This document shows, one piece after another, positions 34,687-63,747 of a stretch of 64,000 nt of DNA; the first letter of the stretch is position 1; every line of letters starts with the position of its first letter. Below the pieces are notes generated by a model. That model did no database searches. It was not told the origin of the DNA and worked only from the letters and a program-made list of their open reading frames with translations. Made by a program: the position numbers and the translations under genes. The DNA lies in assembly GCA_027489035.1 (NCBI GenBank), contig JAIYAN010000008.1, positions 1 to 64,000 of the forward strand. The letters are read 5' to 3'. Source of the stretch: Chitinophagaceae bacterium (lineage in GTDB: Bacteria; Bacteroidota; Bacteroidia; Chitinophagales; Chitinophagaceae).

Positions 34687-35526
34687 TTACCGCCAACTTG
34701 TAACGATATAATATCTTGAATCATAATTTCCGCTTAAATATTCTGATCCTGCATAATTAGAACCGCATGCAGACGCAGCAACTCTATAGTTGCCACTTGA
34801 CAAATAAACGCTTCTTGTGCCTCCTGCTGGTATAGAAATCATTTTAATGTCATTACCACTATATCTTACTGTTAATTCGCATTGAGTGTCATTGGATATT
34901 GTAATTGTAGAGGAAGAGGACGAATTACCCCAGCCACTAGTTTGCTGAGCAGGCGGTAATTGACCGGTGTTCTGGTCTCCCATTATCTCATCTACTTCAC
35001 ATTTAATTATTTTTCTTTTGATTTCTTCAATATCATCCCTATTGGGATAATTCGCAACAAATGTTTTCCATACTGTTGAATTATTTGCATTCAAAGCATT
35101 TTCATAATCAGTCTTTTCTTTTAAAATAACTAATTCATCTAGTCTTTTTGAAGCAAGAGAACTATACTTTCCAGTAGGATATTGATTTAAATAAGTTTGA
35201 GTGTTATTTACTTCATTGGAATTAAGTGCAGATGCCCATTGTTCCTCCTCATTTATTTGATCTAATATTAATTTCGCTTCTGCACTTTCTGGCAGATTGG
35301 GATATTTTTCAATTAATGCATTTAGTTTTTCTTTTGAACTGGCATAATCTTTTGCTTCAAAAAATCTTTTGCCATCAGACAACATATTAGGAGCTCCAAA
35401 TTTTAACTCTTGCAACTCTTGTTCTGCCGCTTCCTTTTCTTTTAAAGCTTCATCATATTTATCACTTGATACGCATGATGACAAAAATAAAACACAAGCC
35501 AGAATACTAATTTTGTAAAGTTTCAT
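34687..35526 (-). CDS. Lipoprotein with YfiO-like helices and a C-terminal beta domain shared with the SH3 protein
   Basis: 279 residues. The lipobox is LFLSSC (Cys at about 18), followed by a short coiled coil (KYDEALKEKEAAEQELQEL) and helical repeats like those of BamD/YfiO (FFEAKDYASSKEKLNALIEKYP). After a Ser-rich linker, the last 75 residues (TITISNDTQCELTVRYSG to YYIVTSWR) align with the C-terminus of the SH3 protein at 45259-45798. It lies 38 bases after the zinc-ribbon gene and is probably in the same operon. Confidence 0.65.
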   Translation of the reverse strand: MKLYKISILACVLFLSSCVSSDKYDEALKEKEAAEQELQELKFGAPNMLSDGKRFFEAKDYASSKEKLNALIEKYPNLPESAEAKLILDQINEEEQWASALNSNEVNNTQTYLNQYPTGKYSSLASKRLDELVILKEKTDYENALNANNSTVWKTFVANYPNRDDIEEIKRKIIKCEVDEIMGDQNTGQLPPAQQTSGWGNSSSSSTITISNDTQCELTVRYSGNDIKMISIPAGGTRSVYLSSGNYRVAASACGSNYAGSEYLSGNYDSRYYIVTSWR

Positions 35527-35564
35527 ATTTTTTTATTTTTCTAAAAACAATAAAGCGAATTATT

Positions 35565-36161
35565 TTAATAGTAAGTTTTATAGTTGTATTTACATTTTTT
35601 GCAAAAAACATCATTAGGATTTTTGTATCCTCCACAACTACAGGTAGTCTTGCACTTGGAACAAAAAACCTCAACTGCACTCTTTTTTCCTCCACAACTA
35701 CAGGTTGTCTTACAATTAATGCAAAATACCTCGAAAGCACTTTTTTTTCTGCCACAAACACATGTGGTACGGCATTTCATACAGAAAACTTCATTTACTT
35801 CTTTATAATTGCCGCATACACAAGTTGTTTTACATTTATGACACATAAACTCATTAGCGCTTTTATATCTTCCACACATGCATTCTGTACTTGAGTACCC
35901 TAAATTATTATCCCAATCATAATTATTGTAAGAATCGATATTATATGACTGGGTATGGGTTGTGTTTTCTCTTCCCCATTTTACTCCACAATGAGGACAT
36001 ATCATTCCAGCCCTAGATTTTACTGAAACTGATTTGCCACATTTACCACAATGTTTGGATTCTGAAACTGTTTTATTCGAGTGTTTTTGTCCTACACAGT
36101 CAAATCCTAATAATTGGAATGCAAGTATAAAAAAGATGAGGAACAACTTAAATTTTTGCAT
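35565..36161 (-). CDS. Secreted zinc-ribbon repeat protein
   Basis: 198 residues with a signal peptide (about 1-25). A first ribbon (CGKCGKS, then CPHCG, about 38-59) is followed by a Tyr/Asn-rich linker and five tandem 20-residue repeats (about 93-192) of the form C-x-C-G-x6-8-F-C-x-x-C-K-T-T. Each repeat could bind one zinc through four cysteines. An exported protein with this many reduced-type Cys pairs is unusual. It belongs to the minus-strand cluster downstream of the small membrane protein. Confidence 0.7.
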   Translation of the reverse strand: MQKFKLFLIFFILAFQLLGFDCVGQKHSNKTVSESKHCGKCGKSVSVKSRAGMICPHCGVKWGRENTTHTQSYNIDSYNNYDWDNNLGYSSTECMCGRYKSANEFMCHKCKTTCVCGNYKEVNEVFCMKCRTTCVCGRKKSAFEVFCINCKTTCSCGGKKSAVEVFCSKCKTTCSCGGYKNPNDVFCKKCKYNYKTYY

Positions 36162-36205
36162 GAATAACTAGATTAACTTCATTTTTAAATATACTTTTAT
36201 TTTTA

Positions 36206-36343
36206 TTATTTAGATTTTTTCAGAAATGCTTTTAGTTTTAGACAAACTTGATACAAACTGGAATCAGGAAACCTGTCTGAAATTATAAGAGATAATCTTT
36301 CGGTAGTATTTTTTGTTTTATCACCGTCTAATTTATAACCCAT
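36206..36343 (-). CDS. Small ORF or C-terminal gene remnant in a 328-bp gap
   Basis: 45 codons from an ATG at 36343 (MGYKLDGDKTKNTTERL, ending LKAFLKKSK), with the frame open a further 12 codons upstream (DELKIKFYIKY). The amino-acid use looks coding. It may be the end of a broken gene. The rest of the gap 36162-36489 shows nothing else. Confidence 0.35.
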   Translation of the reverse strand: MGYKLDGDKTKNTTERLSLIISDRFPDSSLYQVCLKLKAFLKKSK

Positions 36344-36489
36344 ATATTTTATGTAAAATTTAATTTTTAACTCATCTCACAGACAACCCCCATGAATTAG
36401 TCGATTCAGCTATATAAGATCCAGGTTTTAACATCGTTAACACTTGTTTAATAAGAGCTAATAAAAAATAATTTTAAACAATTTCATAG

Positions 36490-36783
36490 TTATTTTTCAG
36501 ATTTATTGGTGAATAGAGAACCCAACAATAAAATGCTTACAACAACATCTATCACATTCCACAACTCTCTACCTAATGCAATTTTAAAGAATGGCTGAAA
36601 TAATAACGCTAAAACAATAAAAACAAACATCATGCTTTTATTATTTTGCTCATTGGCTTCATAAGCCAAAAAACAAAAGCCAGCAAATGCTAAAAATCTA
36701 ACTAGCTGATAAAACCCATATGGCATTTTAAATAAGCATAAAATAAATAAACAAGCAAGGGAAATTTTAATTACTCTACTCAT
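36490..36783 (-). CDS. Small membrane protein, DUF6804-like
   Basis: 97 residues, four short membrane helices (ISLACLFILCLF, FLAFAGFCFLAYEA, MMFVFIVLALLFQPFFK, VVSILLLGSLF). The ALGRELWNVIDVVV stretch matches the DUF6804-type small membrane proteins. Its start overlaps the stop of the TerB-like gene by eight bases, so translation is coupled. Confidence 0.7.
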   Translation of the reverse strand: MSRVIKISLACLFILCLFKMPYGFYQLVRFLAFAGFCFLAYEANEQNNKSMMFVFIVLALLFQPFFKIALGRELWNVIDVVVSILLLGSLFTNKSEK

Positions 36784-37306
36784 GATTATTGCTATCTGTT
36801 AATGAAGTAGTATCAATAGATATCAAATCAAACTTTGGTAATTCAGCAATTTCAAAATATTTATCGGTAATGTTACTTAATGTAGTTTCAATTGAAATAT
36901 CCTCTTCAAGGAAATTATCAATATCCGGATAGGCATTTAGTATAACTTCATCTGAAACTTTTAATTTAGATCTTATGCTTTTGAAGAATTTAATTTCAGT
37001 GTATTGAATTTCTTCGTCAGCTTTAATAGTTTTAATGGCAATATCAATTATCATTAACTCTTCCTGCTCAGATAAATCATATTGGTTCAGCAAGTCAAAA
37101 TAAAACGCAAAGAACTCTTTCCCTTTTTCATTATATTTTTGAATGAAAGCGTTTAATTTTTCTTCAAAATTAGAATCAGAATATAATGGATTGGTTGAAA
37201 AGACTGATTTTAATAATTCAACTTCTCTGCTGTCTATATTGCCATCACAAGCTAAACAACAAAATGCTGTTTTCAGTAAAAGCTTATCAAATGTAATTGT
37301 TTCCAT
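36776..37306 (-). CDS. TerB-like protein
   Basis: 176 residues, mostly helical. Acidic TerB/TerB-like signatures occur twice: CDGNIDSREVELLKSVF near the start and ADEEIQYTEIKFFKSIRSKL near 93-115. TerB domains bind divalent metals and sit beside membranes in tellurite-resistance and predicted stress/conflict systems. It follows the kinase-AAA gene by 25 bases. Confidence 0.7.
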   Translation of the reverse strand: METITFDKLLLKTAFCCLACDGNIDSREVELLKSVFSTNPLYSDSNFEEKLNAFIQKYNEKGKEFFAFYFDLLNQYDLSEQEELMIIDIAIKTIKADEEIQYTEIKFFKSIRSKLKVSDEVILNAYPDIDNFLEEDISIETTLSNITDKYFEIAELPKFDLISIDTTSLTDSNNHE

Positions 37307-37331
37307 TTTCTATATTTTTAATTGTGATATT

Positions 37332-39143
37332 TTATCTTCTGAATCCTATTGGATTTCTTGAATTGTTTTCTCCAGGTTCTTCTCCTTCCATCTTTGCCTT
37401 TATTTGTTCGTATTTTTTTAACTCCTGAAGTGTGACAGATGGCCTTGTATTTTTAATAACATTTTCTAATATTTCCATCGTAATTCTGGAATGAGTTTTC
37501 AATGCTTGTCTTGAAGCTTCATCAACTATCAAGTCTTTAATATCTGAAGAAACAAAGTTTTCTGTCAATGTCGCAAGCTTATCGTAATCAATTCCAAAAT
37601 CTATTGGTCTTGATTTTAGATACATTTCAAACATTAACTTCCTTGCTTCAAAATCAGGTGGTGATAAATAAAACTTTTTATCTAAACGGCCGGCTCTTAA
37701 TAAAGCAGCATCTATCTTATCGGGATAATTTGTTGCACACAAAACGAAAATTCCTTTTTCGCCGGTTCTATCCATTTCAGCCAACATGGCATCAACTGCG
37801 TTTTTAGACATTTCATGAGCATCACTATCTCTGCTTGGAAATAGTCCACTTATTTCCTCTATAAATATTATTGTCGGCGCATTTTTCTCTGCTTCCTGAA
37901 AAAGCTTTGAAATATTCTCTTCTGTTGCATTAATATATTTGCTTTTTAATGTGCCTGGATTTACATGAATAAAATTAAACCCAACTTCTTCTGCAAAATG
38001 TTTTGCAAAAAATGTTTTACCACAACCGGGAGGACCATACAAAAGCATTCCATTGGGAATGGTTAATCCATATTTAGCATACTCTTCTGGTTTATTCAAC
38101 GCATCTATGACATCTAACTGTAATTGTTCTTTTAAAATTTTCATTCCAGCTATTGCATCAAATCCCTTTCCTGTGGCTTTCTGAACTTTTAGTCTGTTAT
38201 TTTCTTTATCAACTGATCTAACTTTTTTAACTGTGTCCACATCTTCAATTTCAATTTCTCCATTTAATGCCTGAAGAAACTCATTAGCATTTTGAAATCG
38301 ATTCTCGGGATCATGTTGTAATGATTTCTTTATGACTTTGATAATGGTCTCATCAAAATCAACAATGTCTTCAGAAATATTTGTGAAAGAAAGCAACTTT
38401 GTTCTTTGTTCTAATATCAAATCTTCTGCTTTTGTTCTGTCTGCCTGAAATTTTGATACATCTTTAAACCATGGTGGCATTCCGAAAAGCAAATGATACA
38501 TTATAGCACCAACAGAGAACAAATCCGATTGAGGAGAAAATATGTTATTGAAACATTCAGAGGCTACATAATTTAAATTTAAACCTTCTTTATTGTATGC
38601 CTTTGAAGATTGATGAAAATAACGGGCAAAACCAAAATCAATAATTTTAGCTTGTGGAATATCTCCAGTCAAATCAAGCATAATGTTTTGAGGAGTAATT
38701 TCATTATGAATAATTGGTTCGGGCAAGTTGTGTAAATAAATTAGACCTTTAAGTACACCAGATATGATTATCTTTAAATCGTAAATTGAAGTGATTTTTT
38801 CTCGCTGATTTTTTTCTGCAAGTGTTTCACCTGCGATAAAATTGAGCACTAAAAAAACATATTTCTTTCCTTCATAAATCAATTCCCCACTGTCTTTATA
38901 GCCGACAATATTTGAATGATCAATTATTTTTAAAAATTCAATTTCGAGTAAGTTATTTTCTCTATCAAATGCTGAACGGTGTAGTTTTGGATAATTGAAA
39001 AGTTTTAAAAAATAAAGTTTTCCATCATTTCCTTTTACCCTATAAGTTTCTGCATTACTACCTTGCTTAATGAAAAGCATTACAGAATAGTTTTGATTTA
39101 AAGAAAAGTTTTTAGGTAAAATACCTTTATGATTTGATTCCAT
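37332..39143 (-). CDS. Protein kinase-like domain fused to a VCP/katanin-type AAA+ ATPase
   Basis: 603 residues. Residues about 15-295 form a eukaryotic-like Ser/Thr kinase fold: Gly loop KQGSNAETYRV, beta3 Lys47, and DFG at 169-171. In the catalytic loop HRD is replaced by H146-N-E148 (IIHNEITPQN), with Asn153 kept. A charged linker leads to a AAA+ domain (about 328-560) with Walker A GPPGCGKT (369-376), Walker B IIFIEE (425-430, first acid Glu instead of Asp), sensor Asn in CATNYP and arginine fingers in LLRAGRLD. The fusion suggests that the kinase part receives a signal and the AAA part remodels a protein. It lies between the Hsp70 and TerB genes. Confidence 0.85.
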   Translation of the reverse strand: MESNHKGILPKNFSLNQNYSVMLFIKQGSNAETYRVKGNDGKLYFLKLFNYPKLHRSAFDRENNLLEIEFLKIIDHSNIVGYKDSGELIYEGKKYVFLVLNFIAGETLAEKNQREKITSIYDLKIIISGVLKGLIYLHNLPEPIIHNEITPQNIMLDLTGDIPQAKIIDFGFARYFHQSSKAYNKEGLNLNYVASECFNNIFSPQSDLFSVGAIMYHLLFGMPPWFKDVSKFQADRTKAEDLILEQRTKLLSFTNISEDIVDFDETIIKVIKKSLQHDPENRFQNANEFLQALNGEIEIEDVDTVKKVRSVDKENNRLKVQKATGKGFDAIAGMKILKEQLQLDVIDALNKPEEYAKYGLTIPNGMLLYGPPGCGKTFFAKHFAEEVGFNFIHVNPGTLKSKYINATEENISKLFQEAEKNAPTIIFIEEISGLFPSRDSDAHEMSKNAVDAMLAEMDRTGEKGIFVLCATNYPDKIDAALLRAGRLDKKFYLSPPDFEARKLMFEMYLKSRPIDFGIDYDKLATLTENFVSSDIKDLIVDEASRQALKTHSRITMEILENVIKNTRPSVTLQELKKYEQIKAKMEGEEPGENNSRNPIGFRR

Positions 39144-39173
39144 TTTTGAAAAGCTGAAAGTTTATAATTTAAA

Positions 39174-41708
39174 TTATCCTAAAGTTTCTCCATCATTATC
39201 AATTGGGTCAATCCTTAAATCCCATATCTGAAGAACTATTGGTTTTAATTGGGATGTCTTTCCTTCTGAAATTAACTTCATTCCTTGATTTACAAGTTGT
39301 CGTGCTTTAGTCTTATCTTTCCACCTAAGGTTTTCAAATTCTCTATCATGGTATTCTATCCTTCCTTTATCCACTAAGCCTCCCGATACTGAATTACGAA
39401 TTTCTCTTTCAAGCATTTCTATCTCCTCTGTTAATTCCTTCGCAGCTTTTACTTCTTTATTTTTAATGATATGATCTATAGTCTTTTTGTACTCCTGGAT
39501 ATGAATTTCAATTTTATCCATTTCTATTTCTTCATCATCATTATTTAATTTTATCTTTTTAATTAGGTCTTCAAAATCAAAAAAGGCATCTTTAAGTTCT
39601 TTTTCAATTTTTGGCCATTCTGCTACTTTTTCGGCGCTGTCTAATTTCAGTAGCTCTTTACGTAAGCCATCAAGAATTTTTAGTTTACCATCTGCACTTC
39701 CTTTTTCATTTTCTAACTGTTCTTCAAGTGCTTCTAACTTTTCATAAATATCATTAGCATTAAGTTTCTGTGCTGTTAGCTTTGCTTTATAAATTTCTTT
39801 TTTAAGTAATTCTTCAGTAGGTGGTTCTGTCTGTTTAATTTCAATTTCTAATTCCTCGCTATGGTTTAACAAAGGAAAGTATGCTGTAAATTTCATTAAT
39901 TGTGATCCATCGACTTTAATGGTAATATCAACATCACTTCCTTCTGGTAATAATGCTGGCATAGTTTCTCCTGTAATAATCACTTCATTCACAAGATTAT
40001 TCAAAGTCGGAGTCGTACCTTCTGAATTATATTCACCTTGATAAATTGGAATGCGAATTATATCTTTTATCATTCCAGGCCTAATAGCAGTTCTCGTTTT
40101 CAAACCATTTCTAACACCTGTAACCGGAATAGACTTATTTCTTTCTAATCCCTTTACACAAGCAAATCTATCATCTTTAAATTCATGAAAATATTTACCA
40201 ATTCCAATATTATAAGGTAATACCTGCATTTTATCAAGGCCTCCAATTCCTTGTAAAATGCTAAATTGATTTGGTTGGCATTCTAATTTATTACCAGCTT
40301 CGTCATAAACGTTAATTTCAAAAGAATTAGAACGCCCCTCAACTAATAGAACATCAACGATTGTAGCTTTCTCACTAATTAGTTTTTTGCCGCTACTCCA
40401 TGCTCCATCAAATCGTACCACATCAGCGTAAATCTTTTCGGGAAAAGTTCCCGTAGTTTTTTCTTTTAGTACCTTCAAATTTACCATTTCGTCCAATTCC
40501 ACAGAAGTAGCTTCGTATTTAATATCCAGTTGAAGTTTAGTTTTATCTCTTGTTGTTTCTTTTACTTCGTCTGAAACCGAAATTGTTGAGGCAAATAAAG
40601 CGGCACCTTTTGCAACGACTGTCATTGGGTCAACCGAAGTATCTATTTTTTCAGTAATTTGTTCTTTAAGCATTCTGCGAAGGATTGGCGAATAAGTTGG
40701 TCCACCAACTAATATCAAGGCGCCAAGGTCAGAACCTTTTAGATTATTTCGCTTTAATAAATCTTTACAAATATCTATTGCCTTTTGAAAAATTGGAGAA
40801 AATATTTTTTCCAAATCATTACCAGTTAATTCCAAGTCAATTTCTGGCTCTTCGCCATTTTCATCTTCAAATGGCAGATCTCCAAGATTAGTTAAAATTC
40901 GAGCCTTATCCTTAAATGAAAGTTCGTTTTTAGCACCTTCTGCATGAAATTTAACCGCAGCTCTTAACAGCTCTTTTTTTGTTGAATCATTTATTACAAA
41001 ATCAATTGCATAGTTTTCTTGTAGATAAGGAATTATTAGGCTGTCAACAATTGCCTCATCTAGATTTTTACCTCCGAGCCAATTGTCCCCATCAGTATCT
41101 TTTACCGCTAAAACACCTTCTTCAGCCTTTATTAATGCAGCATCAAATGTTCCACCACCGAAATCGAAAACCAACCAAAAGCCGTCTTTATTGCTTGAAT
41201 CAAGACCATAAGCGGTGGCTGCAGCCACTGGTTCTTGTAATAGTTCAATATGTTTAAAGCCCGCAAGCTTTGCGGCTTGCATTGTAGCTTCATTTTGTGG
41301 ATTTAAAAATTTTGCAGGAACTGTAATGACTATTGAAGAAATATTTTCGTCTGAAACAAGTGATTTTAGCTTCTTTAGCACCTCAGCAGATAAATCTTCG
41401 GATGAAAAACTTGTATTCATATTTGAAGACTCTTCTTTATGAGTTGTCCCCATGGTTCTTTTGAACTCAATGAAAGTGTTTTTTTGTCCTTTTTCAAATG
41501 TCTTTAATGCTCTTGCACTATCGTTTTTTAAAACATTATACGCTGTATCTCCAACAAGTATATCTTGCTTTCTACTAAATGTTATACATGAAGGAGTTGT
41601 GTCTTTAAGAGTTTCAGATTTCTTAATTGTTGGAACCCCATTTTCCATTCTTGCTATTGCAGAGTTTGTTGTTCCCAGATCAATTCCATAATCAATTTTA
41701 TTTCTCAT
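39174..41708 (-). CDS. Divergent Hsp70 (DnaK-family) chaperone, 844 aa
   Basis: The nucleotide-binding domain is complete: DLGTTNS at 10-16, VPAKFLNPQNEATMQAAKLA at 130-149, DFGGGTFD at 182-189, GDNWLGG at 207-213 and ILVGGPTYSP near 335-345. After about 390 the protein leaves the DnaK pattern: the hydrophobic VLLLD linker is not recognisable, the beta domain is different, and about 220 C-terminal residues are long charged helices or coiled coil. Normal DnaK is about 640 residues. It is not the housekeeping dnaK. It is flanked by GrpE-like and kinase-AAA genes. Confidence 0.9.
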   Translation of the reverse strand: MRNKIDYGIDLGTTNSAIARMENGVPTIKKSETLKDTTPSCITFSRKQDILVGDTAYNVLKNDSARALKTFEKGQKNTFIEFKRTMGTTHKEESSNMNTSFSSEDLSAEVLKKLKSLVSDENISSIVITVPAKFLNPQNEATMQAAKLAGFKHIELLQEPVAAATAYGLDSSNKDGFWLVFDFGGGTFDAALIKAEEGVLAVKDTDGDNWLGGKNLDEAIVDSLIIPYLQENYAIDFVINDSTKKELLRAAVKFHAEGAKNELSFKDKARILTNLGDLPFEDENGEEPEIDLELTGNDLEKIFSPIFQKAIDICKDLLKRNNLKGSDLGALILVGGPTYSPILRRMLKEQITEKIDTSVDPMTVVAKGAALFASTISVSDEVKETTRDKTKLQLDIKYEATSVELDEMVNLKVLKEKTTGTFPEKIYADVVRFDGAWSSGKKLISEKATIVDVLLVEGRSNSFEINVYDEAGNKLECQPNQFSILQGIGGLDKMQVLPYNIGIGKYFHEFKDDRFACVKGLERNKSIPVTGVRNGLKTRTAIRPGMIKDIIRIPIYQGEYNSEGTTPTLNNLVNEVIITGETMPALLPEGSDVDITIKVDGSQLMKFTAYFPLLNHSEELEIEIKQTEPPTEELLKKEIYKAKLTAQKLNANDIYEKLEALEEQLENEKGSADGKLKILDGLRKELLKLDSAEKVAEWPKIEKELKDAFFDFEDLIKKIKLNNDDEEIEMDKIEIHIQEYKKTIDHIIKNKEVKAAKELTEEIEMLEREIRNSVSGGLVDKGRIEYHDREFENLRWKDKTKARQLVNQGMKLISEGKTSQLKPIVLQIWDLRIDPIDNDGETLG

Positions 41709-41848
41709 GTTTTATATTTTTAATTATTTAAAATCATTTTGATTTTTTTGGTGGCTTTTAAATAAAATGTACCTAAAGTAAAATTCTATAAAATGACGTA
41801 TAAATTAATTTAAGTGTTGAAGACATTGTAAATAACTTTAAAAATAAT

Positions 41849-42727
41849 TTAGTAGCCAACAGAAACCTCTATTTGAGCAGTTTGAATCATTTTATCATTA
41901 TAATTTACTTGAGGAATCAATATTTTAGTAATAATTTCTTGTCCTTTCTCAAGTGTTTCATCAGGAATTGATGTAGTAACTATTACTCTCATACCTTGAT
42001 TGAAAGCCTTTCCTAAGAGTTCAGGCATTTCATAACCATTAGCGAATAAGTTGTCTTTTAATTTCCCAACCGATGCTTGTAATTGTTTTAACCCTTTTGT
42101 TTTTGAATCCATCAGGTTGATGTTTCTTTCAATCAAATTGATTTCACTGGCAACTTTCAAAGCTAAAGAATGGTCGGGTTCTACATTAGGCGTTACTTGT
42201 AGCGTATTTTTTTGGTGTTCTATTAAGTGTAAATGAGAATCCATCAATTCAGTTTGCTTACCGAATTCTTTCACTAAACTTTCCTCTATGGATGATTTAG
42301 TTTTGCTCAACTGGTCAATAAAATCCGACTTGTCTGTTTGTTGCTTTTTACTCAAAAGCCAATATAAAATACCCGAAAGTAGAATTGCTAAAAGCACTCC
42401 AATAATTCCGTAAAGCGTATTTTTGCTTAATGAATCTGATACCTCTGTTATTTTTTCTCCAGATTGTGAAATTTTTATTCCCAATTGACTAGCTGTTGTG
42501 TTTATGGCCGCCGTGTTTTCTAGAAGACTTTTCTTCAAACTATTGATGCTATCATAAGCAGCATTAAGTTTAATATTTAGTGTGCCAACCTCCGATATTC
42601 TAATACTATTTTCCGATTGAAGGTCTTTTATTTTTTTATTTAATTGCTTAAATGTACTATCTGAATTTTCGGCAAATGAGCCGAATGAAGAAATTATAAG
42701 TATTGTAAATGTTATTAGTTTTTTCAT
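41849..42727 (-). CDS. Membrane-anchored GrpE-like nucleotide exchange factor (proposed)
   Basis: 292 residues. A signal peptide (1-19) is followed by a periplasmic coiled coil (about 25-100), one membrane helix (about 105-126, LYGIIGVLLAILLSG) and a cytoplasmic helical region. The last 75 residues (GYEMPELLGKAF, then VIVTTSIPDETL, IITKILIPQVNYN and IQTAQIEVSVG) follow the pattern of the GrpE beta domain. Its place directly ahead of Hsp70 supports a nucleotide exchange role tied to the membrane. The GrpE match is by eye and moderate. Confidence 0.55.
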   Translation of the reverse strand: MKKLITFTILIISSFGSFAENSDSTFKQLNKKIKDLQSENSIRISEVGTLNIKLNAAYDSINSLKKSLLENTAAINTTASQLGIKISQSGEKITEVSDSLSKNTLYGIIGVLLAILLSGILYWLLSKKQQTDKSDFIDQLSKTKSSIEESLVKEFGKQTELMDSHLHLIEHQKNTLQVTPNVEPDHSLALKVASEINLIERNINLMDSKTKGLKQLQASVGKLKDNLFANGYEMPELLGKAFNQGMRVIVTTSIPDETLEKGQEIITKILIPQVNYNDKMIQTAQIEVSVGY

Positions 42728-43491
42728 TATTTTAAAAGTTTTATAAATTGATTCAAAGATTTTCGAATGATGATGTTTATTGCTTTTTTATTTTTAAGCT
42801 TTTCAACAATTTTCGGTGAATAGTGGTAATATGTTTTTATAAACCATTTTCCTAATACCATCTTATCCAAAACCTCATCTCGAAATTGACGCAAAATCAT
42901 TACTTGTGGATGGTTATAATCACCATAAACCATTGTAGCTATGTAACAGCCTTTATTTAGTTCTTTTAGTTTGTTTTCATAAAGCATTTTTGCATCAAAA
43001 ACTTTAGTTCTTAAATAACTTTCATCGTAGTTAATCTGGATTCCAAGACGAGTGTTTTTTTCAAGAAATGACAACAAATTTCTCTTGGTATTGAGACATG
43101 CAATCAGGAAGTTTGTAGGAATTTGAGAAAACTTTTTGATGAAAGCAATATTTTCATTTTTCCCTAGATTATTACCGATAGTTTGAAAATAAACTTGAAT
43201 TTGACCTAAACAAGAAATATATAATTTTTCAACTAACTCATTAATCTTATCAACGTATAATGTAAGGATTGAATTAAAAATATTTCTATCAAATTCCTTG
43301 TTAAAATCGAATAATTGAGAACTGAGAATCTTGTCAAATGATTCATTTTTAGTAATCGCATCTGAATTTAATTCTTCGTAAATTTTTGCGGTAAATTCAA
43401 AAAGATGCCTAGAATGATCGTCATCAACTCTTAACCTATTGAAGTCATTTGAATTGCCTTTCCAACTAAGTCCTACAGCTTGTATAAACAT
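42727..43491 (-). CDS. CFI-box protein
   Basis: 254 residues. The N-terminal 175 are helical and unrecognised. The C-terminal part has the CFI-box pattern: CYIATMVYGDYNHPQV, LRQFRDEVL and YYHYSPKIVEKL, close to the usual C-F-I-A-T-A-x-Y-G ... L-R-x-F-R-D ... Y-Y-x-x-S-P. This box recurs in many unrelated bacterial proteins and its role is unknown. The gene overlaps the GrpE-like gene by one base, so they are translationally coupled. Confidence 0.7.
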   Translation of the reverse strand: MFIQAVGLSWKGNSNDFNRLRVDDDHSRHLFEFTAKIYEELNSDAITKNESFDKILSSQLFDFNKEFDRNIFNSILTLYVDKINELVEKLYISCLGQIQVYFQTIGNNLGKNENIAFIKKFSQIPTNFLIACLNTKRNLLSFLEKNTRLGIQINYDESYLRTKVFDAKMLYENKLKELNKGCYIATMVYGDYNHPQVMILRQFRDEVLDKMVLGKWFIKTYYHYSPKIVEKLKNKKAINIIIRKSLNQFIKLLK

Positions 43492-43506
43492 ATTTTTATT
43501 TAAATT

Positions 43507-45183
43507 TTAAACAGAGAAATTTTTTCCAATTGATACCCCAATAATACCACCGACCAAAGCTCCTCCACCGTCTCCTAAATAAGCACCGATCAAAACTCCT
43601 ATTAGTCCAAAAATCCACCAAGCATTTTCTGAAAAATCAAAATCACTTGAGTTACTTGTTGTGGCTGTACTAATTGGCCGTGAGCTTCCGCCTCCACTAT
43701 TTCCTCTAGAACCATTAGATACTTTATCGAGTTGTGTCTTTTCGTTTTGTATAAATGTTTTGTACTCTTGGAACTGAGTTTTGAAATCATTTTTTAAGTC
43801 CATTGCACCAACCATATTAATAACAGTAATAACAGGAGTTATTTTTTCTTTCAGAGAATTTATTATTGCAAGTTTTTGACTATTATATGTAGCGGTTTCA
43901 AACTTTTTTTTCAGATCAATATAATCAGATAATGAATAGTTTAGTGCATCTGATGCAATTCTTGTACTTACACTCAAATATAATTCATCGCTACTGCCTA
44001 ATACATTTTTTATATTATTCAAAGATTTTTTTGAAGCATTTAAGTGTTGAATTGCATTTTCTACTGTTTCGCTTTTGTTGTCGTAAGCATCAATCAAGTT
44101 TTTAATAATATCAAAATCAACTGAGATCATTTTTTGTTTGTCTCTTTCTTGTTGTCCCTCTACCCAATCTTGTATAACTTCTATAGTTTCTTCACATCTG
44201 TTTTTAACAATCTTTCCAAACGCAAATGATTTCGACTTTTTACAAAGAGTTAAAGCTTCAGGTCCTGGATCAAAGTCCGTGTCCATGAAGTGGTTATAAT
44301 AATCAATGCCACACTGAAGAACTTCATCCGCAATCTTATCAGAAATATTGATAAATTTCAAATTTTTTGAACCTAAGATTGATTTCAGAAGAGCATAATT
44401 TTTTGCTGTTGCAGAAATTATTTTTTTACCTATTGCTATTGAATTTGTTTTGTTATTTTTCCTATTGACTTTCCCTGTCTCAATTTCTTTTTCGATTTGT
44501 TCAAGCGGCTTTTGAATATAGCTTTTCAAAAAATCTTCTTTTGCAGAAAATTCTTGTTGGTTTACAATTTCAATAAACTTCGAAGTAGTTAAACCTTTGC
44601 TTTTTTCAATCTCGACCTGAATTTGATTAAGAAACAAAAGCTGAAGCTCTATTTTTGATATTTTAAATGTTTCATCAGTAGCCAACTTTATAAAGGATTT
44701 TGAAAAATTGCTTTCAATAAATTTCAATTTATATCTTATCCCTTTTTCAAGTACAGTTTCATTTATTAATTCATTTTTAAATGCAGCATGCAACATTAAT
44801 GTTGAAAGATTGCTAAAAGCAGAAAGATTGTATTCAGCAACCTCTTTTTCGGATGTTTTTAAACCCCAAATTCTTATTGCATCCTGAGTATCATTAGCTT
44901 TTATCGCATCAAAAGCAGGTTCGTCTGTGTGACTTCCATCAAAAAACCAAAACAATGCGGCAATAATTTTATCGTTTCCAAGATTGAGTTTGGAGGATGC
45001 ATCATTTACATTTTCAATTGTTCTATTTAATTGGCCTAAAACAGGAAAGCTAAAATCTTCCTCCGGCTCCTGCTCAGCTTCAATAAATTGTTTTAAACGT
45101 CTAGTTTGCCTTTCCTGTTCCCTTGCAGTTGCACCTACAAGCAAACCAAGTATTCTGTAAGGATTTTTTAAAACGATATTCAT
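43507..45183 (-). CDS. J-like protein with a glycine-zipper membrane tail
   Basis: 558 residues. The first 80 residues (NPYRILGLLVGATAREQERQ, FPVLGQLNRTIENVNDASSKL, then IIAALFWF) resemble a DnaJ fold that opens with a YxxLGL motif but has no HPD tripeptide. I recall similar N-termini beside Hsp70 paralogues. A long helical middle with coiled coils follows, then a Ser/Gly linker and a C-terminal hydrophobic, Gly-rich tail (FGLIGVLIGAYLGDGGGALV). It would complete an Hsp70-GrpE-J set (inference). Confidence 0.6.
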   Translation of the reverse strand: MNIVLKNPYRILGLLVGATAREQERQTRRLKQFIEAEQEPEEDFSFPVLGQLNRTIENVNDASSKLNLGNDKIIAALFWFFDGSHTDEPAFDAIKANDTQDAIRIWGLKTSEKEVAEYNLSAFSNLSTLMLHAAFKNELINETVLEKGIRYKLKFIESNFSKSFIKLATDETFKISKIELQLLFLNQIQVEIEKSKGLTTSKFIEIVNQQEFSAKEDFLKSYIQKPLEQIEKEIETGKVNRKNNKTNSIAIGKKIISATAKNYALLKSILGSKNLKFINISDKIADEVLQCGIDYYNHFMDTDFDPGPEALTLCKKSKSFAFGKIVKNRCEETIEVIQDWVEGQQERDKQKMISVDFDIIKNLIDAYDNKSETVENAIQHLNASKKSLNNIKNVLGSSDELYLSVSTRIASDALNYSLSDYIDLKKKFETATYNSQKLAIINSLKEKITPVITVINMVGAMDLKNDFKTQFQEYKTFIQNEKTQLDKVSNGSRGNSGGGSSRPISTATTSNSSDFDFSENAWWIFGLIGVLIGAYLGDGGGALVGGIIGVSIGKNFSV

Positions 45184-45258
45184 TTATTCTCAAAAATTTA
45201 ATCTACTTTTTCGTTATTACAATTATTTGAATCGCATATTATTTATTGGTACCATTTT

Positions 45259-45798
45259 CTATCTTCTTCGTGTTATAATATAAAACTTCCATGAATATCC
45301 TTGCCCACCTTGCAATGATTCCAATCCAATATAAGGAGTAACACCTGGTGCTGAAGCACGATATGAACAAGTGCCAGGATAAACAGTAATTGTTTTTTTC
45401 TGTTGAGGACTGAAGGAATAGGTTTCCGAATTTAATTTTAATGTTAGTTTCAAATTTGTATTGTTGAAAATTTCAAGTTCAGATTCACTTGAATTAATTT
45501 GACCTGTTGAAGTAAATAATCCTTCTTCATTTCTTTTTACTTCCATTCCGACATTTATAAACGACTTACTTACATATCCTTCTTTGTCAGAATTAATATC
45601 TATTACATTATAAAAGTCATTTTCTGAATCAAGAGATATTATGAAAATATTCGCACCGGGCTTTAATGATTTTATTATTCCATATTCTTTACCTGGACCT
45701 TCTCTAAGGTTTACTTGTCTAATGATTTTACCCAGATAAGATTGCGCTGACACTGAAACACTCAAGCATACAGATATCAATAAAAGAATGTTTTTCAC
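45259..45798 (-). CDS. Secreted bacterial SH3 protein with shared C-terminal beta domain
   Basis: 179 residues. The signal peptide ends VSAQ (about 1-19). An SH3b domain covers about 20-85 (QVNLREGPGKEYGIIKSLKPG, EGYVSKSFI), which usually binds peptidoglycan. The last 75 residues (SELEIFNNTNLKLTLKL to SWKFYIITRR) match the C-terminus of the lipoprotein at 34687-35526. The two related exported proteins mark the two ends of the chaperone-kinase cluster. Confidence 0.75.
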   Translation of the reverse strand: MKNILLLISVCLSVSVSAQSYLGKIIRQVNLREGPGKEYGIIKSLKPGANIFIISLDSENDFYNVIDINSDKEGYVSKSFINVGMEVKRNEEGLFTSTGQINSSESELEIFNNTNLKLTLKLNSETYSFSPQQKKTITVYPGTCSYRASAPGVTPYIGLESLQGGQGYSWKFYIITRRR

Positions 45799-46424: not shown

Positions 46425-46456
46425 GGTTACCGATTAATTAAACACTTATAAGTAAT
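46425..46456 (+). promoter_or_regulatory. Sigma-type promoter P2 (autoregulation)
   Basis: GGTTACC at 46425-46431, 14 bases, then TTATAAGTAAT at 46446-46456. The -10-like half touches the annotated ATG of the sigma gene (46455), so either the true start is downstream, the transcript starts elsewhere, or the motif is an operator. Confidence 0.6.
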
Positions 46457-47123
46457 GAGAGTAGCAGGAAACAATAGTCAATCAAACTACACAGATGCTG
46501 AACTGATAGATTTATTAAGAAAATCTCATAAAGGGATTATGGAGATTATTTATAATAAACATAAGGACTCTGCAATAAGGTTTATGAAAAAAAGGTATGA
46601 TGATGAAGCTATCATTATGGATGTATATCAAGAATCAATGATAGCTATTTATAAAAATATTTCAAATCCGGTTTTTAAATTAACTACCGACTTTCAAGGA
46701 TATATTAATACGGTTTGTGAATACCAGCTTTTGAATGCAATAAAAAAAGAAAAAAAACAAGATTTAATTAAAAGTGGAGATTATGTTTTAAAAAATCAAA
46801 AGAAAAATTCGGATGGATTTGATGACCTAATCGATATAAACAGAAGTTTAAGGCCTAATACGAATAAAGGTCAAACAGGTGAAGGATATGAGGGAAATTT
46901 AAACATTGAAAACATTAATATTTTTAACCTCGTTTTTAATAAGATGAAAGAAATGAGCGAAAATTGTTTTGAAATAATCAATCGCAGTTTTCTTATGGAA
47001 AAAAATGATGAACAAATAGCACAAGAATTAGGTTATGCTAATGCAAGAACTGTAATTAATTTAAAATCAAGATGCATTAGAAAGTTAAGACTAGAGGCAT
47101 TAAAAATAAAAATACATTCTTAA
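46455..47123 (+). CDS. Sigma-70 family RNA polymerase sigma factor
   Basis: 222 residues. The sigma2 region shows TDAELIDLLRKSHKGIMEII, then DVYQESMIAIYKNI (the -10 recognition helix area). The sigma4 region at the C-terminus shows NDEQIAQELGYANARTVINLKSRCIRKLR, a helix-turn-helix that would read the GGTTACC box. A 60-residue linker separates them. Length and layout fit the ECF group. The start is uncertain because P2 overlaps the ATG. The partner gene begins one base after the stop. Confidence 0.85.
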   Translation: MRVAGNNSQSNYTDAELIDLLRKSHKGIMEIIYNKHKDSAIRFMKKRYDDEAIIMDVYQESMIAIYKNISNPVFKLTTDFQGYINTVCEYQLLNAIKKEKKQDLIKSGDYVLKNQKKNSDGFDDLIDINRSLRPNTNKGQTGEGYEGNLNIENINIFNLVFNKMKEMSENCFEIINRSFLMEKNDEQIAQELGYANARTVINLKSRCIRKLRLEALKIKIHS

Positions 47124-47124
47124 A

Positions 47125-48270
47125 ATGAAAGAAGGATTTTTTAATAAAGTAAGGGAGTACTTACTCACTTTCGATGAGAATATCCGAGAGCGTATTAGAA
47201 AAAGTATAGAGGAAGATGATTTTGAATTTATTTCAAAAATTGAAAATTCATTTCTTTCAGACAAGCACATAAATGCAATAATTCAAGAATTCCAATTGGA
47301 GCGCATCCAGGAGGAAATAAAGGATTTACACGCAGAATATTATCTTCAATTAGCAGAGCTATATGCTGAAGGAAAAACAAACAAAGAAATTGAAACGCTT
47401 CTTTCTTCAGACAACCAAACGTTTAAAAAAACAGTATTATTGTTTCCTGATGAAGCCACATTTTTTAAGGAGTTGTCAATTGCAGTTGATGATAAAAAGA
47501 CTGAGCAATTAAAGAAAGGATATGCCGAAATAGATGAGTGGCTGGAATCAAAAAAATCGAGCAGGAATAATGATGAAGCACGTGTTGTATCAATAAGAAG
47601 AAAAATATTCCGTTATGCCATAGCAGCAGCTGTAGTTGGATTGTTAATTGGTGGTGCTTATTTTAAATTTTTTAGTTACAAACAAAAAAATAAAAATACC
47701 TTATCCCATAATGATTCATTAAATAAGCCACCTTTTGCAAATCTAGATTTGCCTAATCACATTGAGATATATGAAAGTAAAATTTCTATAATTGTAGATA
47801 AACAAGATATCGAGATTGCCGAAAGTGATAATTTAAAAGATTCTATCTACTTAAAAACAAATGGATTTCTATACCAAATTAAGTACTTAGAAGAAATGCA
47901 AATTGCGACATCGAAACATTTGAATCATCAAAAAGTAAATGATGATTCAAATGTTTCAATCAACTATTTACTTTGGAAAAGTAGAATAATTTCTAATCAA
48001 ATAGATTCATTGCTAAATTTGCTGAACACCTATACTTACAATTTTCAGACTAAGAAAATGGTTTTAAATTTTCCTAATGTAAGTATTGTTAAAAAAATCA
48101 TCTCTACAAATCCAAATAACTTATCTGAATTGTACATCAAAATAGAAGACAAGTATTATTTGATCAAGAATTCAGAAGTTCCATTGAAACTATTTCCGAT
48201 TAAAGATGAAAAAGAAATTGAAATATTGACAAGAATTGAACTATTAAATTACCCCATATACTATCGCTAA
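47125..48270 (+). CDS. Single-pass membrane partner of the sigma factor (putative anti-sigma)
   Basis: 381 residues. The cytoplasmic N-terminus (about 1-165) is helical and acidic (DENIRERIRKSIEEDDFEFI). One membrane helix is at about 167-190 (YAIAAAVVGLLIGGAYFKFF), followed by a 190-residue periplasmic part with no known family. A membrane protein immediately behind an ECF sigma gene is classically the anti-sigma factor, but no ZAS/RskA motif is visible, so the role is inferred from position. Confidence 0.65.
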   Translation: MKEGFFNKVREYLLTFDENIRERIRKSIEEDDFEFISKIENSFLSDKHINAIIQEFQLERIQEEIKDLHAEYYLQLAELYAEGKTNKEIETLLSSDNQTFKKTVLLFPDEATFFKELSIAVDDKKTEQLKKGYAEIDEWLESKKSSRNNDEARVVSIRRKIFRYAIAAAVVGLLIGGAYFKFFSYKQKNKNTLSHNDSLNKPPFANLDLPNHIEIYESKISIIVDKQDIEIAESDNLKDSIYLKTNGFLYQIKYLEEMQIATSKHLNHQKVNDDSNVSINYLLWKSRIISNQIDSLLNLLNTYTYNFQTKKMVLNFPNVSIVKKIISTNPNNLSELYIKIEDKYYLIKNSEVPLKLFPIKDEKEIEILTRIELLNYPIYYR

Positions 48271-52973: not shown

Positions 52974-53417
52974 TCACAACACAACATCCGTAATATCTTT
53001 TAAACTACTACCACCAAAATAATAAATACCAAAATCTTTTGATTGCTTTCTAATTGCTCTAAGATTATCCAACCAGGGCTCGAATGAAATAGTACTTATT
53101 TCATCGCAAAGAATGTATACTTCTTTATTTTTCCCTGCACAACTACCTTGAACTTGTTGTACTACTTTGGGCAACAATTTATCTAATGGAATAAATTGAT
53201 CTTGCCTTAATTTTAATTGTTTTGGAGATTTAGAAATACTTATAAATATTGCCAATTCACAACAATTTGCTTTTTCATCTGAGGGAATTAGATTGAAAGT
53301 TGTACCACCTAAAATATTATCAAATAATTCAGATATCGTTCTTGCCTCTTCAATTCTTGTATTACGATCACGATTACCTTTTAAAGCATCAAAAATAAAT
53401 TTCAATATTCCTTTCAT
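52974..53417 (-). CDS. Hypothetical protein
   Basis: 147 residues, soluble alpha/beta (CCELAIFISISKSPKQLKL, EVYILCDEISTISFE). Not recognised. A gap of 62 bases separates it from the NadR-like gene on the same strand. Confidence 0.55.
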   Translation of the reverse strand: MKGILKFIFDALKGNRDRNTRIEEARTISELFDNILGGTTFNLIPSDEKANCCELAIFISISKSPKQLKLRQDQFIPLDKLLPKVVQQVQGSCAGKNKEVYILCDEISTISFEPWLDNLRAIRKQSKDFGIYYFGGSSLKDITDVVL

Positions 53418-53479
53418 AATTTGCAGTCTTTAAATGAATTAATAATCTAATTTATAAAATTTATTCTAATTATTAATGA

Positions 53480-54478
53480 TTAATCCAACCCTTCATTTCC
53501 ATATATCAAAATCTCATTTATACACTCTACCGCCCTCTCAAATCTTTCCTCCCAACCCCCACTTATTTCAACTACTTCAATTTCATGAGCAGATAAAACC
53601 TTTCTATGTGAAGCATCTAATAAGTCCCTTTCCGCTTCACTTAATCTTGTGCCATCCTGGAAATATTCAACATCATTATTTAGGTATAAATAAAGATTTG
53701 CTTTATTGGCTTTGTAGATCTCAGGAGCGACCTCTAGTTCTTTCCCAAAACAGAACATGGAATACGATTTGGTAATGTGGATGTCTGTATCAATTATAAC
53801 AAGTGGACTATCTGCTAAAACAGCCAGGTTTATTCTTCTTGCATGTTCATTGGCGACAAGGTGTAAATCTTCATAACAAAATTCATTAGAATCTGCAATC
53901 AAATCTCTACCTGCTTCAGAAACCAAACTACATTTAAAATGGTTTTTAAGCCTTTCAGATAGTGTTGTCTTTCCGGTAGATTCTGTTCCTAACAAAACAA
54001 TTTTTATGGTAAAATAAGGTTTCACGCTGTCCGGCAAAATTTGCCAATTCTTAAATATGTCATTTCGTACAGCAGTTGCAGAAACGGGAAAATTTGATCT
54101 GGGCTTATCAAATGCAATGTGTTCAATATTCATATAATTAGCCACTAAACTGCCGTAATCTTCAGATGTAATCAAGAGTGAATAATCCGGAAATTGTTTT
54201 TGAAAAATTTTTGCCCATACCTCAGACACTGACACCGAAGTCACAGATGTATTTGGTAGTTCACTTTCGAGGTAATCAAAAACACGTACCTCTACATTAG
54301 GTATTTTTTCAAATGTTTTCCTTATCCATGAACTTCTAATCTCACCAGAGATATTTTCTTTATCACTGCTACATACCAACACCGATAAGAAATCACATTT
54401 AGAAAGCGCAAAATTTATCATCGCCTCATGCCCTTTATGAAAAGGATAAAATTTACCAAATACAAAAGCTTTAATCAT
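53480..54478 (-). CDS. nadR: Bifunctional NadR-like NMN adenylyltransferase / ribosylnicotinamide kinase
   Basis: 332 residues. The N-terminal nucleotidyltransferase has FGKFYPFHKGHEAMI (GxFxPxHxGH) and SATAVR. The C-terminal kinase has the P-loop GTESTGKTTLSERL. Unlike the enterobacterial protein it lacks the N-terminal repressor helix-turn-helix. It should turn nicotinamide riboside into NMN and then NAD. It overlaps pnuC by eight bases. Confidence 0.9.
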   Translation of the reverse strand: MIKAFVFGKFYPFHKGHEAMINFALSKCDFLSVLVCSSDKENISGEIRSSWIRKTFEKIPNVEVRVFDYLESELPNTSVTSVSVSEVWAKIFQKQFPDYSLLITSEDYGSLVANYMNIEHIAFDKPRSNFPVSATAVRNDIFKNWQILPDSVKPYFTIKIVLLGTESTGKTTLSERLKNHFKCSLVSEAGRDLIADSNEFCYEDLHLVANEHARRINLAVLADSPLVIIDTDIHITKSYSMFCFGKELEVAPEIYKANKANLYLYLNNDVEYFQDGTRLSEAERDLLDASHRKVLSAHEIEVVEISGGWEERFERAVECINEILIYGNEGLD

Positions 54479-55100
54479 TTCTCAATTGTTTTTTCCAATG
54501 AAAAAGACCGTATGACGCTAACCCAAGAAAAATTAGATATTCAAGAGAAAGAAAATAAACGCCTTTTTTATAATAAAGAAACATACAAATCAAATCAACA
54601 CAGATCCATAAATACCAGCTCTCTATTTTCTTTTTTGCGAGCAGAACAGTAGCAACGATACTTAAAACCATAACTAATGAATCTGTAAACGGATAAGAGG
54701 CTTTAATTTTAAAATACGCCGGTAGATACGTATGAATATTTGAAAACAAGAAACCGGAAATTAATGTTAGAATTATAATAATCAATGTGACAAAAATTCT
54801 ACTTCTCAAATCCACAACAGAAATATCGACTTGATCTTTCTTGCCATTCCATTGAAACCAACCATAAATTGTTACAACAAAAAAATACAATTGCAAAAAC
54901 ATGTCTGCATATAGTTGGATTTGAAAAAATAAAATGAAAAGAAAAAACTCATTCACTATTCCAGTTGCCCAGGTTAATAAATTTGCTCTTGTTGCAAAGT
55001 AAATTGAAACCAACCCAAATAATGTACCAATCATCTCTACATAGCTAATTGAGTAGCCCATAATTTCAAATGCAATATTTTCAATTTCAAAAAAATGCAT
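54471..55100 (-). CDS. pnuC: PnuC-family nicotinamide riboside transporter
   Basis: 209 residues with about seven membrane helices. The signature TWATGIVNEFFLFILFF and FVVTIYGWFQWN identify PnuC. It lies between the TonB-dependent receptor and nadR with overlapping ends, so outer-membrane import, inner-membrane import and phosphorylation are encoded in order. Confidence 0.9.
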   Translation of the reverse strand: MHFFEIENIAFEIMGYSISYVEMIGTLFGLVSIYFATRANLLTWATGIVNEFFLFILFFQIQLYADMFLQLYFFVVTIYGWFQWNGKKDQVDISVVDLRSRIFVTLIIIILTLISGFLFSNIHTYLPAYFKIKASYPFTDSLVMVLSIVATVLLAKKKIESWYLWICVDLICMFLYYKKGVYFLSLEYLIFLGLASYGLFHWKKQLRND

Positions 55101-57094: not shown

Positions 57095-57215
57095 TTTCGT
57101 TTCAAATTTGGTTGTATATATCTTTTTAGAGATGTGCTTAATACTATGTGTTTGTTGAATTTTGGTATGCGGAATCCGAATTTCATTTGTGAGGTTTATT
57201 GTATGATGAAATTAA

Positions 57216-57424
57216 ACTTTTTTGGAAAGAACTATTGATGAAATTTTAAACCAATTGAATATCTGTAATGGACCAATTGCATTTCTTCCAAACAGCTATC
57301 AAATCGGCATTATACTAGAAAAGATTGGTCTCAATAAAAAGTCAAAAGCGCATTAAATGAAGTCAAAGACGGAGGAATTGAAATAATGGATGAAAAAAAA
57401 GGACATCTATTTTATGTACCTTAG
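57216..57424 (+). pseudogene. Frameshifted gene fragment
   Basis: Two open pieces in different frames join into one coding-like stretch. The first has RTIDEILNQLNICNGPIAFL to LEKIGLNKKSK. The second has ALNEVKDGGIEIMDEKKGHL before a stop at 57422. The shift lies near 57350. The family is not recognised. The rest of the gap 57095-57447 has no signal. It sits just ahead of the HEPN-like gene. Confidence 0.5.
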
Positions 57425-57447
57425 ATTTTATTAAACCAGCTTATTCG

Positions 57448-58089: not shown

Positions 58090-58263
58090 TATTATTTCCC
58101 TCTAACCTGCCACTACACAGAAACCTTAGAAGAAATGCTGGTTTTTTTTGCACTTTCCAAATTACTATAAAAATGGATTTTCAATTGAACTCTATAAAAA
58201 ACTGAAAGGTGTTTATAAAAATAACATGAATGCTTTGGCAATTTCCCAGAATTATTTTTTGTG

Positions 58264-62089: not shown

Positions 62090-62104
62090 AATGTGTAATT
62101 TAAA

Positions 62105-63537: not shown

Positions 63538-63747
63538 TTTTTATTTACAAGTTTATTTAATTTTTTCCCTTCACCATACATTAATTATACCACTCACAAT
63601 CTACAAAAACAAAATTTTATATAATCGGCTAAATCGATATTATTTGATATTCGTGAAGGTATTGAACTATACCGCAATCTATTGAAGGAATGGTATAAAA
63701 TCATTGTCCATCCTTAAATTTTTAATTATAAAAAAAATGAATCAAAT

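Follow-up and report, generated by a model that had tools for sequence, protein, structure and literature searches.

The bacterial bi-chaperone system pairs DnaK, DnaJ and GrpE with ClpB. The gene cassette analysed here, at 34687..45798 of a 64,000-nucleotide stretch of Chitinophagaceae bacterium DNA (GenBank assembly GCA_027489035.1, contig JAIYAN010000008.1, positions 1 to 64,000 of the forward strand; the whole stretch is called the window below), resembles that system in encoding, next to an AAA+ ATPase, an Hsp70 with probable partners of the GrpE-like and J-like kinds. It differs in that the GrpE-like head sits on a membrane protein, the J-like protein has no HPD motif, the Hsp70 has no equivalent of R167, and the AAA+ part is of the Cdc48 type and fused to a probable pseudokinase; moreover, it is mobile and patchily distributed. 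The cassette is real, conserved and horizontally mobile, and its core consists of the genes for the J-like protein, the membrane GrpE-like protein, the Hsp70, the kinase-AAA protein and a TerB-domain protein, while the SH3, DUF6804 and separate CFI genes vary from locus to locus. A first-pass annotation made from the letters alone had recognised no published system of this composition; we likewise found none in open-access papers and no system-specific PADLOC match.

Two described groups come nearest. The HSP70-GrpE theme of the predicted GAP1-N2 GTPase conflict systems comprises HSP70, GrpE and a DnaJ-domain protein and is described mainly from actinobacteria and firmicutes (Kaur et al. 2020; PMC7159879). 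Both that theme and the cassette encode HSP70 with GrpE/DnaJ-type partners, whereas the cassette has a membrane GrpE-like protein, a kinase-AAA protein and TerB and has no FNIII protein. The CoCoNuT work describes Hsp70-like nucleotide-binding and substrate-binding domains in predicted defence systems, sometimes together with TerY-P kinase modules, and infers that the CoCoNuT protein CnuD hydrolyses ATP very poorly (PMC11090510). An Hsp70-like protein is thus common to both, but the ATPase positions tested in the cassette Hsp70 are intact in 33/33 members. The Pfam tables of the ten cassette-region proteins (for the kinase-AAA protein, the best 25 of 30 matches) contain no GTPase family such as the GAP1-N2 GTPase, and no McrB-type GTPase, McrC or HEPN nuclease. 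The defining GTPase of each group is thus missing from the cassette.

We know of no Hsp70, GrpE-like or J-like partner in the Shango and Bunzi defence systems. Both contain TerB (PMC10952713), and a TerB domain is likewise present in the cassette. Phage sensing by bNACHT25 requires host DnaJ (PMC12169576), which also puts a chaperone within an anti-phage sensing path; there, however, a NACHT protein uses the DnaJ of its host, whereas the cassette would be a dedicated chaperone set. Among the PADLOC 2023 models, no system-specific one matches any of the ten proteins, which score only against kinase/AAA models common to many systems and, weakly, against coiled coils. Since its mechanism would still be remodelling by an Hsp70 and an AAA+ ATPase, the cassette may be viewed as a variant of chaperone-based conflict systems.

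All ten genes of the first-pass annotation were confirmed as minus-strand open reading frames (ORFs) at the positions it gave. From the gene that opens the run they are:

45259..45798, minus strand: exported SH3_3 protein, 179 aa, accessory (PF08239 match)
43507..45183, minus strand: core gene 1, probable J-like protein, 558 aa (hhalign to DnaJ; recurrence in loci)
42727..43491, minus strand: CFI-box protein, 254 aa (NF041770 match)
41849..42727, minus strand: core gene 2, probable membrane GrpE-like protein, 292 aa (hhalign to GrpE; hydropathy)
39174..41708, minus strand: core gene 3, divergent Hsp70, 844 aa (PF00012 match; residue counts)
37332..39143, minus strand: core gene 4, kinase-like domain fused to a Cdc48-type AAA+ ATPase, 603 aa (Pkinase and AAA matches)
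36776..37306, minus strand: core gene 5, TerB-domain protein, 176 aa (PF05099 match)
36490..36783, minus strand: DUF6804 small membrane protein, 97 aa, accessory (PF20619 match; hydropathy)
35565-36161, minus strand: Cys-rich exported protein, 198 aa, probably outside the core (past a 328-base gap)
34687-35526, minus strand: DUF6759 lipoprotein, 279 aa, probably outside the core (past the same gap)

The tight packing reported earlier is borne out: there are overlaps of 1 base between the CFI and GrpE-like genes and of 8 between the TerB and small membrane protein genes, and several gaps are under 40 bases (J-like to CFI 15, Hsp70 to kinase-AAA 30, kinase-AAA to TerB 25, Cys-rich to lipoprotein 38). 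The wider ones lie between the SH3 and J-like genes (75), the GrpE-like and Hsp70 genes (140) and the small membrane protein and Cys-rich genes (328). In a Pfam search of the ten proteins, HSP70, Pkinase with AAA, TerB, DUF6804, SH3_3 and DUF6759 exceeded curated cut-offs; these and the NCBIfam match of the CFI-box protein uphold the identities first proposed for the Hsp70, the kinase-AAA+ fusion, TerB and the CFI-box protein. The small membrane protein was also correctly called, with a DUF6804 match (PF20619, 117 bits) and three hydrophobic segments. The SH3_3 domain scores 31.5 bits against PF08239 (cut-off 27), and its gene lies upstream of the J-like gene in 7/39 loci as well as, by eye, in congener locus L140. 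The two exported proteins described as related are indeed alike over 45 aa at the C-terminus (36% identity, E 7e-4 when just these two sequences were compared). Both genes at 34687-36161 were rejected as core members, the Cys-rich protein recurring in 0/39 loci and the lipoprotein having profile matches in 2/39 (L035 and L048). Scans for promoters and terminators yielded no more than shuffled sequence.

Conservation of the core was assessed from a scan of genome contigs that yielded 37 loci, 31 with titles marking them as metagenome-assembled genomes; with five further genome loci added and the duplicates L018, L026 and L045 dropped, 39 were annotated. Among loci with room for the gene in question, the J-like gene was present in 33/34 (the miss is L015), Hsp70 in 33/33, kinase-AAA in 27/29, TerB in 22/26 and DUF6804 in only 9/26, and all five core genes occurred in 20/25. 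The CFI-protein profile had a same-strand match no more than 9.5 kb away in 28/34 loci. The hosts are mostly Bacteroidota, but include Melioribacteraceae, Nautiliaceae, a Clostridia bin and a Dojkabacteria bin, the last with the GrpE-like, Hsp70 and kinase-AAA genes on a short contig. Gene order is retained across Bacteroidota, a Nautiliaceae bacterium and the Clostridia bin, and because the same order recurs from locus to locus the set exceeds what chance would assemble. In the 23 loci with all five genes, moreover, pairwise identities are correlated (r 0.79-0.92) and no permutation reached the observed value for any of the ten gene pairs (0/300 each); chance adjacency was rejected on this ground, though part of the co-divergence signal could come from a species history common to the genes. 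Thus, of the single conserved set originally envisaged, gene-neighbourhood counts sustain a five-gene core, leave the SH3, DUF6804 and separate CFI genes as variable additions, and exclude the last two genes.

The Hsp70 matches PF00012 at 233.7 bits and has, by eye, roughly 100 aa inserted between the linker and the substrate-binding beta domain. Its residues were counted in the 33 of 41 rows longer than 780 aa, in E. coli numbering (R167, N170, Y145, D8 and so on). The ATPase equivalents of D8, T11, P143, E171, D194 and T199 are conserved in all 33, and the lysine equivalent to K70, whose alignment column was misaligned, was found in an EFKR motif by regular expression in 28 and by eye in the remaining five. 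The R167 position is never arginine (0/33; 22 Glu, 9 Gln, 1 His, 1 Lys), and N170 is replaced by Gln and Y145 by Lys in 32/33 each, while the DnaK and HscA of the same genome retain R, N and Y. D35 of the HPD motif contacts R167 in a salt bridge described as critical (PMC13012618). The loss of both HPD and R167 suggests a private pair, and the Hsp70 machine is probably insulated from housekeeping J-proteins. Compared with canonical DnaK-DnaJ-GrpE, the nucleotide motifs of Hsp70 are present, and HPD, R167 and a soluble PF01025 GrpE are absent. Because the genome already has its ordinary DnaK, HscA, DnaJ and one PF01025 GrpE, the cassette is an additional chaperone set; the second, membrane-tied Hsp70 set postulated earlier is thus indeed separate from the genome's own, with partners recognised at the profile level. 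In loci L022 (13456-15528) and L023 (13512-15590) a second, shorter Hsp70 gene directly follows the first; it has none of the phosphate-binding motifs searched for and probably encodes a pseudo-Hsp70. A KilA-N domain gene (L023:15746-16567) lies between the Hsp70 genes and kinase-AAA in L023.

The GrpE-like protein has a signal-peptide-like start (by eye), a coiled coil, one transmembrane segment (residues 99-117 or slightly later) and a putative GrpE-like head at C-terminal residues 183-292. It gives no Pfam match to PF01025 at E <= 1, and a search of its own genome yields only the canonical GrpE. When the C-terminal ~110 residues of 39 of the 40 family rows were aligned by hhalign with 20 canonical GrpE proteins, the match covered 86 columns up to the C-terminus and scored 27.3 (P 6.8e-4); the best of 100 column shuffles scored 18.5, and the best of 21 background pieces, the protein's own coiled coil, scored 19.3. 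The swapped control was null, 55 of 100 shuffles reaching the head's score against DnaJ. These values, like those for the J-like protein below, were obtained after trimming to the GrpE-like head and to the J-like start; untrimmed, the GrpE comparison weakened to P 0.011. A profile search of solved structures with the GrpE-like family returned coiled-coil matches and no GrpE among the best 60 of 105. PbeC, ZorA (PADLOC) and DotF were set aside as homologues, their matches lying largely in the coiled-coil and transmembrane part (that of PbeC extends to residue 224).

The internal hydrophobic segment is present in 39/40 GrpE-like rows, the window's included (the exception, L022, starts late; the membership of L015 is doubtful), and a second one near the N-terminus passes the threshold in 23/40, not including the window's. 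Lysine and arginine are commoner after the internal segment than before it in 35/39 rows and equal in four, among them the window's. The predicted topology would place the coiled coil in the periplasm and the GrpE-like head in the cytosol. A membrane-anchored protein with a GrpE-like end, as first described, therefore has support both from the profile-level link to GrpE and from this hydrophobic segment.

The J-like protein begins (NPYRILGL...) with what appears to be a degenerate J-like domain, and its C-terminus is Gly-rich and hydrophobic-looking by eye, though under the transmembrane threshold of the hydropathy scan. Pfam gives no DnaJ match at E <= 1. The N-termini of 35 of 39 rows (four without the start motif were dropped), aligned with 18 DnaJ-family proteins, scored 24.9 (P 4.3e-4) over 22 columns, a value reached by 0/100 column shuffles (best 17.7) and by none of 21 background pieces of other cassette parts (best 16.5). 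Against GrpE, in the swapped control, which was again null, the score was reached by 8/100 shuffles, and the untrimmed comparison with DnaJ was weaker (P 0.0036). No J-protein occurs among the nine rows of the solved-structure profile search with this family. HPD is found in the first 160 residues of 0/39 rows, at least three of which lack the N-terminus, and the earlier call of a J-like protein without HPD accordingly holds, its DnaJ link being at the profile level. For the GrpE-like and J-like parts alike there is fair evidence of homology, and we regard both assignments as probable; they rest on sequence profiles, which are not structural proof. The CFI-box (NF041770) scores 83.8 bits against a cut-off of 40 and occupies residues 182-249 of the 254-aa protein; in many relatives the CFI match falls within the J-like protein itself. 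Two loci (L028:693-4690 and L050:195-3850) carry the J-like gene in two tandem copies upstream of the GrpE-like gene.

The kinase-AAA protein matches Pkinase at 126.9 bits and AAA at 129.3 bits, and among solved structures (the best 60 of 272 matches) its AAA part is nearest Cdc48/VCP. In the window, HNE replaces the HRD motif of the kinase-like domain. Over 32 rows (these include the plasmid copy and exclude the non-orthologous L015_2080, L031_351 and L041_682), the HRD catalytic Asp is Asp in one, Glu in 26, Asn in four and Arg in one, while 31 rows retain the VAIK Lys and 29 the DFG Asp. In the AAA part, all 32 rows have Walker A, the Walker-B Glu and the arginine fingers. Because the AAA motifs are kept and the HRD Asp is lost, the Cdc48-like AAA+ motor appears intact, and the kinase domain is probably a pseudokinase with a regulatory role. 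Control by an active kinase was rejected on the single retained HRD Asp, and the kinase-like control suggested initially is on the same count doubtful. The window's copy (37332-39143) is the sole member of the 32 with Glu at the Walker-B Asp. TerB matches PF05099 at 26.9 bits (cut-off 24.4), and in L022 and L030 it shares one reading frame with kinase-AAA. The Pfam search recognised no nuclease or toxin in the core.

The cassette is rare and moves between hosts. Among 395 genomes from the phylum, the GrpE-like gene turned up in 6; one of these (G215, locus L015) has no J or Hsp70 neighbours and was read as a false member, although it is still counted in the six. Within the genus, whole-model matches occur in 2/93 genomes, the window's own and G399. 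The 21 others among the 23 that pass E 1e-3 give weak partial matches, taken for coiled coil and rejected. In the second congener the same order is seen for the J, GrpE-like and Hsp70 genes together with, by eye, an SH3-like gene. Chryseobacterium and Empedobacter carry the cassette in a ~15-kb element (L020:1183-16845 and L021:2084-16991) whose cassette loci share 97.2% identity along 6,995 bases, as against 84-89% across the rest of the shared stretch. Three of the genes scanned in Chryseobacterium encode a tyrosine integrase, MobC and a relaxase, and Empedobacter has matching ORFs; no other cargo was recognised among the subset of ORFs scanned. Repeats of 13 and 11 bases with TTTAAAATAAA in common lie at both ends, where the shared DNA stops, and the element probably ends at these repeats, which are AT-rich and short. 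On the Haliscomenobacter plasmid pHALHY02, typed as non-mobilizable, the J-like, GrpE-like, Hsp70, AAA and TerB genes stand between a SIR2/STAND/WD40 run and BREX genes.

In defence-island scoring, as proposed in the first-pass annotation, 110 ORFs flanking the cassettes matched 297 PADLOC families, as against 7 and 7 in two controls, these figures being counts of families and not of ORFs, so that one defence gene may match many. The flanking sample comprised 110 of 188 ORFs of 180-1200 aa (threshold 1e-10), with L015 left out and near-identical loci kept; the controls, also of 110 ORFs, came from canonical grpE neighbourhoods (110/206) and from hand-picked places in long contigs of relatives (110/259), and so from relatives of the window and not from the genomes that carry the other cassettes. 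Individual neighbours include HsdR, directly upstream in both L041 and L043; downstream in L036, a helicase resembling HsdR; in L042, a ResIII helicase together with a PbeC-like protein; matches to PDC-S60 (L014), type III restriction (L029) and Ppl (L016); and, on pHALHY02, BREX and SIR2-EAD11/nSTAND1.

From this neighbourhood and from the mobility, an immune role is likely, though unproven. The broad reading, a self-contained mobile Hsp70/AAA+ machine wired to the envelope and most likely directed against phages or other mobile elements, seems to us evenly poised; for its anti-phage side, TerB in Shango and Bunzi and the need of bNACHT25 for DnaJ serve as precedents. A fuller version, which we offer tentatively and on the doubtful side of even, is an undescribed mobile immune system in which a transmembrane nucleotide-exchange factor (NEF) would convert a signal at the envelope into cycling of an orthogonal Hsp70; the latter, insulated from housekeeping J-proteins by the loss of HPD and R167 alike, would pass its clients to a Cdc48-like unfoldase, gated by the pseudokinase, for the dismantling of invader complexes. 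In the mechanism proposed for the broad reading, the membrane GrpE-like protein, in its predicted topology, and exported partners (the SH3 protein and lipoproteins) would sense an event at the envelope, for example phage binding or DNA entry, and the signal would alter nucleotide exchange on the private Hsp70. That Hsp70, whose docking residues for housekeeping J-proteins are lost, would remain inactive until its own partners engage it. Lacking HPD, the J-like/CFI protein may be a client adaptor or membrane dock and not the canonical ATPase trigger. The Cdc48-like AAA+ hexamer, with TerB and the fused pseudokinase as its gate, might then receive the client and unfold it or pull it out of a complex, much as in the DnaK-ClpB pair. 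Since Pfam finds no nuclease or toxin in the core, the output would probably be remodelling of invader proteins or, where the small transmembrane protein is present, possibly disabling of the membrane.

Several observations weigh against the broad reading. Housekeeping genes (ThiC, phosphoglucose isomerase, adenylosuccinate synthetase) occur in the flanks, the genes right beside some cassettes include those for a TonB receptor, a peptidase and an aldolase, and position in an island cannot in any case separate anti-phage from anti-plasmid or stress roles. No relative was found in 50,697 phage records, nor on a viral contig among 61 pattern matches. The kinase-AAA protein matches the mad6, IetA and PD-T4-6 PADLOC models, none of which names the cassette, and it falls far under the NCBIfam cut-offs (MAD6 99 vs 460 bits, IteA 101 vs 510). 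The GrpE and J assignments depend on profile P values near 5e-4 that weaken untrimmed, the J match covering only 22 columns. Finally, kinase-AAA is absent in L049 and L033 and TerB in L023, L032, L033 and L039; not all five genes may be needed, or these loci may be broken.

A rival reading is an accessory, island-borne chaperone operon for envelope stress or niche adaptation (metal, tellurite-like or cell-wall stress) and not for defence, in which the GrpE-like protein would sense envelope damage, Hsp70/AAA+ would repair or extract damaged membrane proteins and TerB would link to Ter-type responses. The exported SH3_3 and DUF6759 partners, the transmembrane protein, TerB itself and the ordinary metabolic genes beside some loci all fit, and in other organisms the extraction of membrane proteins is a task of Cdc48-type proteins. 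A rare and patchy cassette (the six genomes above, one without partner genes, and two in the genus), borne by a mobilizable element and adjoined at several loci by restriction, BREX or STAND genes, fits less well, and we think this explanation unlikely, though it deserves real weight. Occurrence with an integrase, MobC and a relaxase, without other recognised cargo among the ORFs scanned, and also on a plasmid might instead indicate a helper module that aids the conjugation, establishment or inheritance of its carrier and not the protection of the host. We find this improbable: a phage integrase match occurred in only 3/110 sampled flanking ORFs (relaxases were not searched across loci), the carriers differ, pHALHY02 is non-mobilizable by typing, and no toxin was recognised by Pfam. 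That ordinary chaperone and signalling paralogs are adjacent by chance, forming no functional unit, is disfavoured and very hard to credit; each domain family is common alone, but the order kept from Bacteroidota to Nautiliaceae and the Clostridia bin, the five genes in 20 of 25 loci, the 0/300 permutations and the kinase-AAA-TerB fusions in two loci all speak against it.

Hsp70 machines are near-universal housekeeping equipment, and it would be unusual for a complete private one to move from species to species as a cassette. Through an NEF that is part of a membrane protein, Hsp70 would receive direct transmembrane input, and concerted loss of HPD and R167 would amount to a natural orthogonal Hsp70 pair for probing J-protein action. 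If the cassette is immune in function, protein remodelling, and not nucleic-acid cutting, joins the defence repertoire.

In the window, the cassette lies in what is probably an acquired variable region (28401-53000) downstream of RecQ, with a GC content of 0.302 as against 0.352 for 1-28400 and 0.324 for 53001-64000. A search for the empty site in ten relatives showed that six continue more than 5 kb past RecQ and differ there, and the window's genes were not found past RecQ in those six, apart from weak matches, distant helicase ones among them; the edge of the island is not fixed, because in the other four the contigs end close to RecQ. About 12 kb from the cassette, a minus-strand gene at 58264-61701 encodes a large helicase-type protein that matches PADLOC mREase_IV (type IV methyl-directed restriction) at 741.5 bits. 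Divergent from the cassette, plus-strand genes at 46455-48270 encode a sigma-70 region 2 protein and then a 381-aa protein with no Pfam match and one transmembrane-like segment (by eye), a pair that resembles a sigma/anti-sigma pair.

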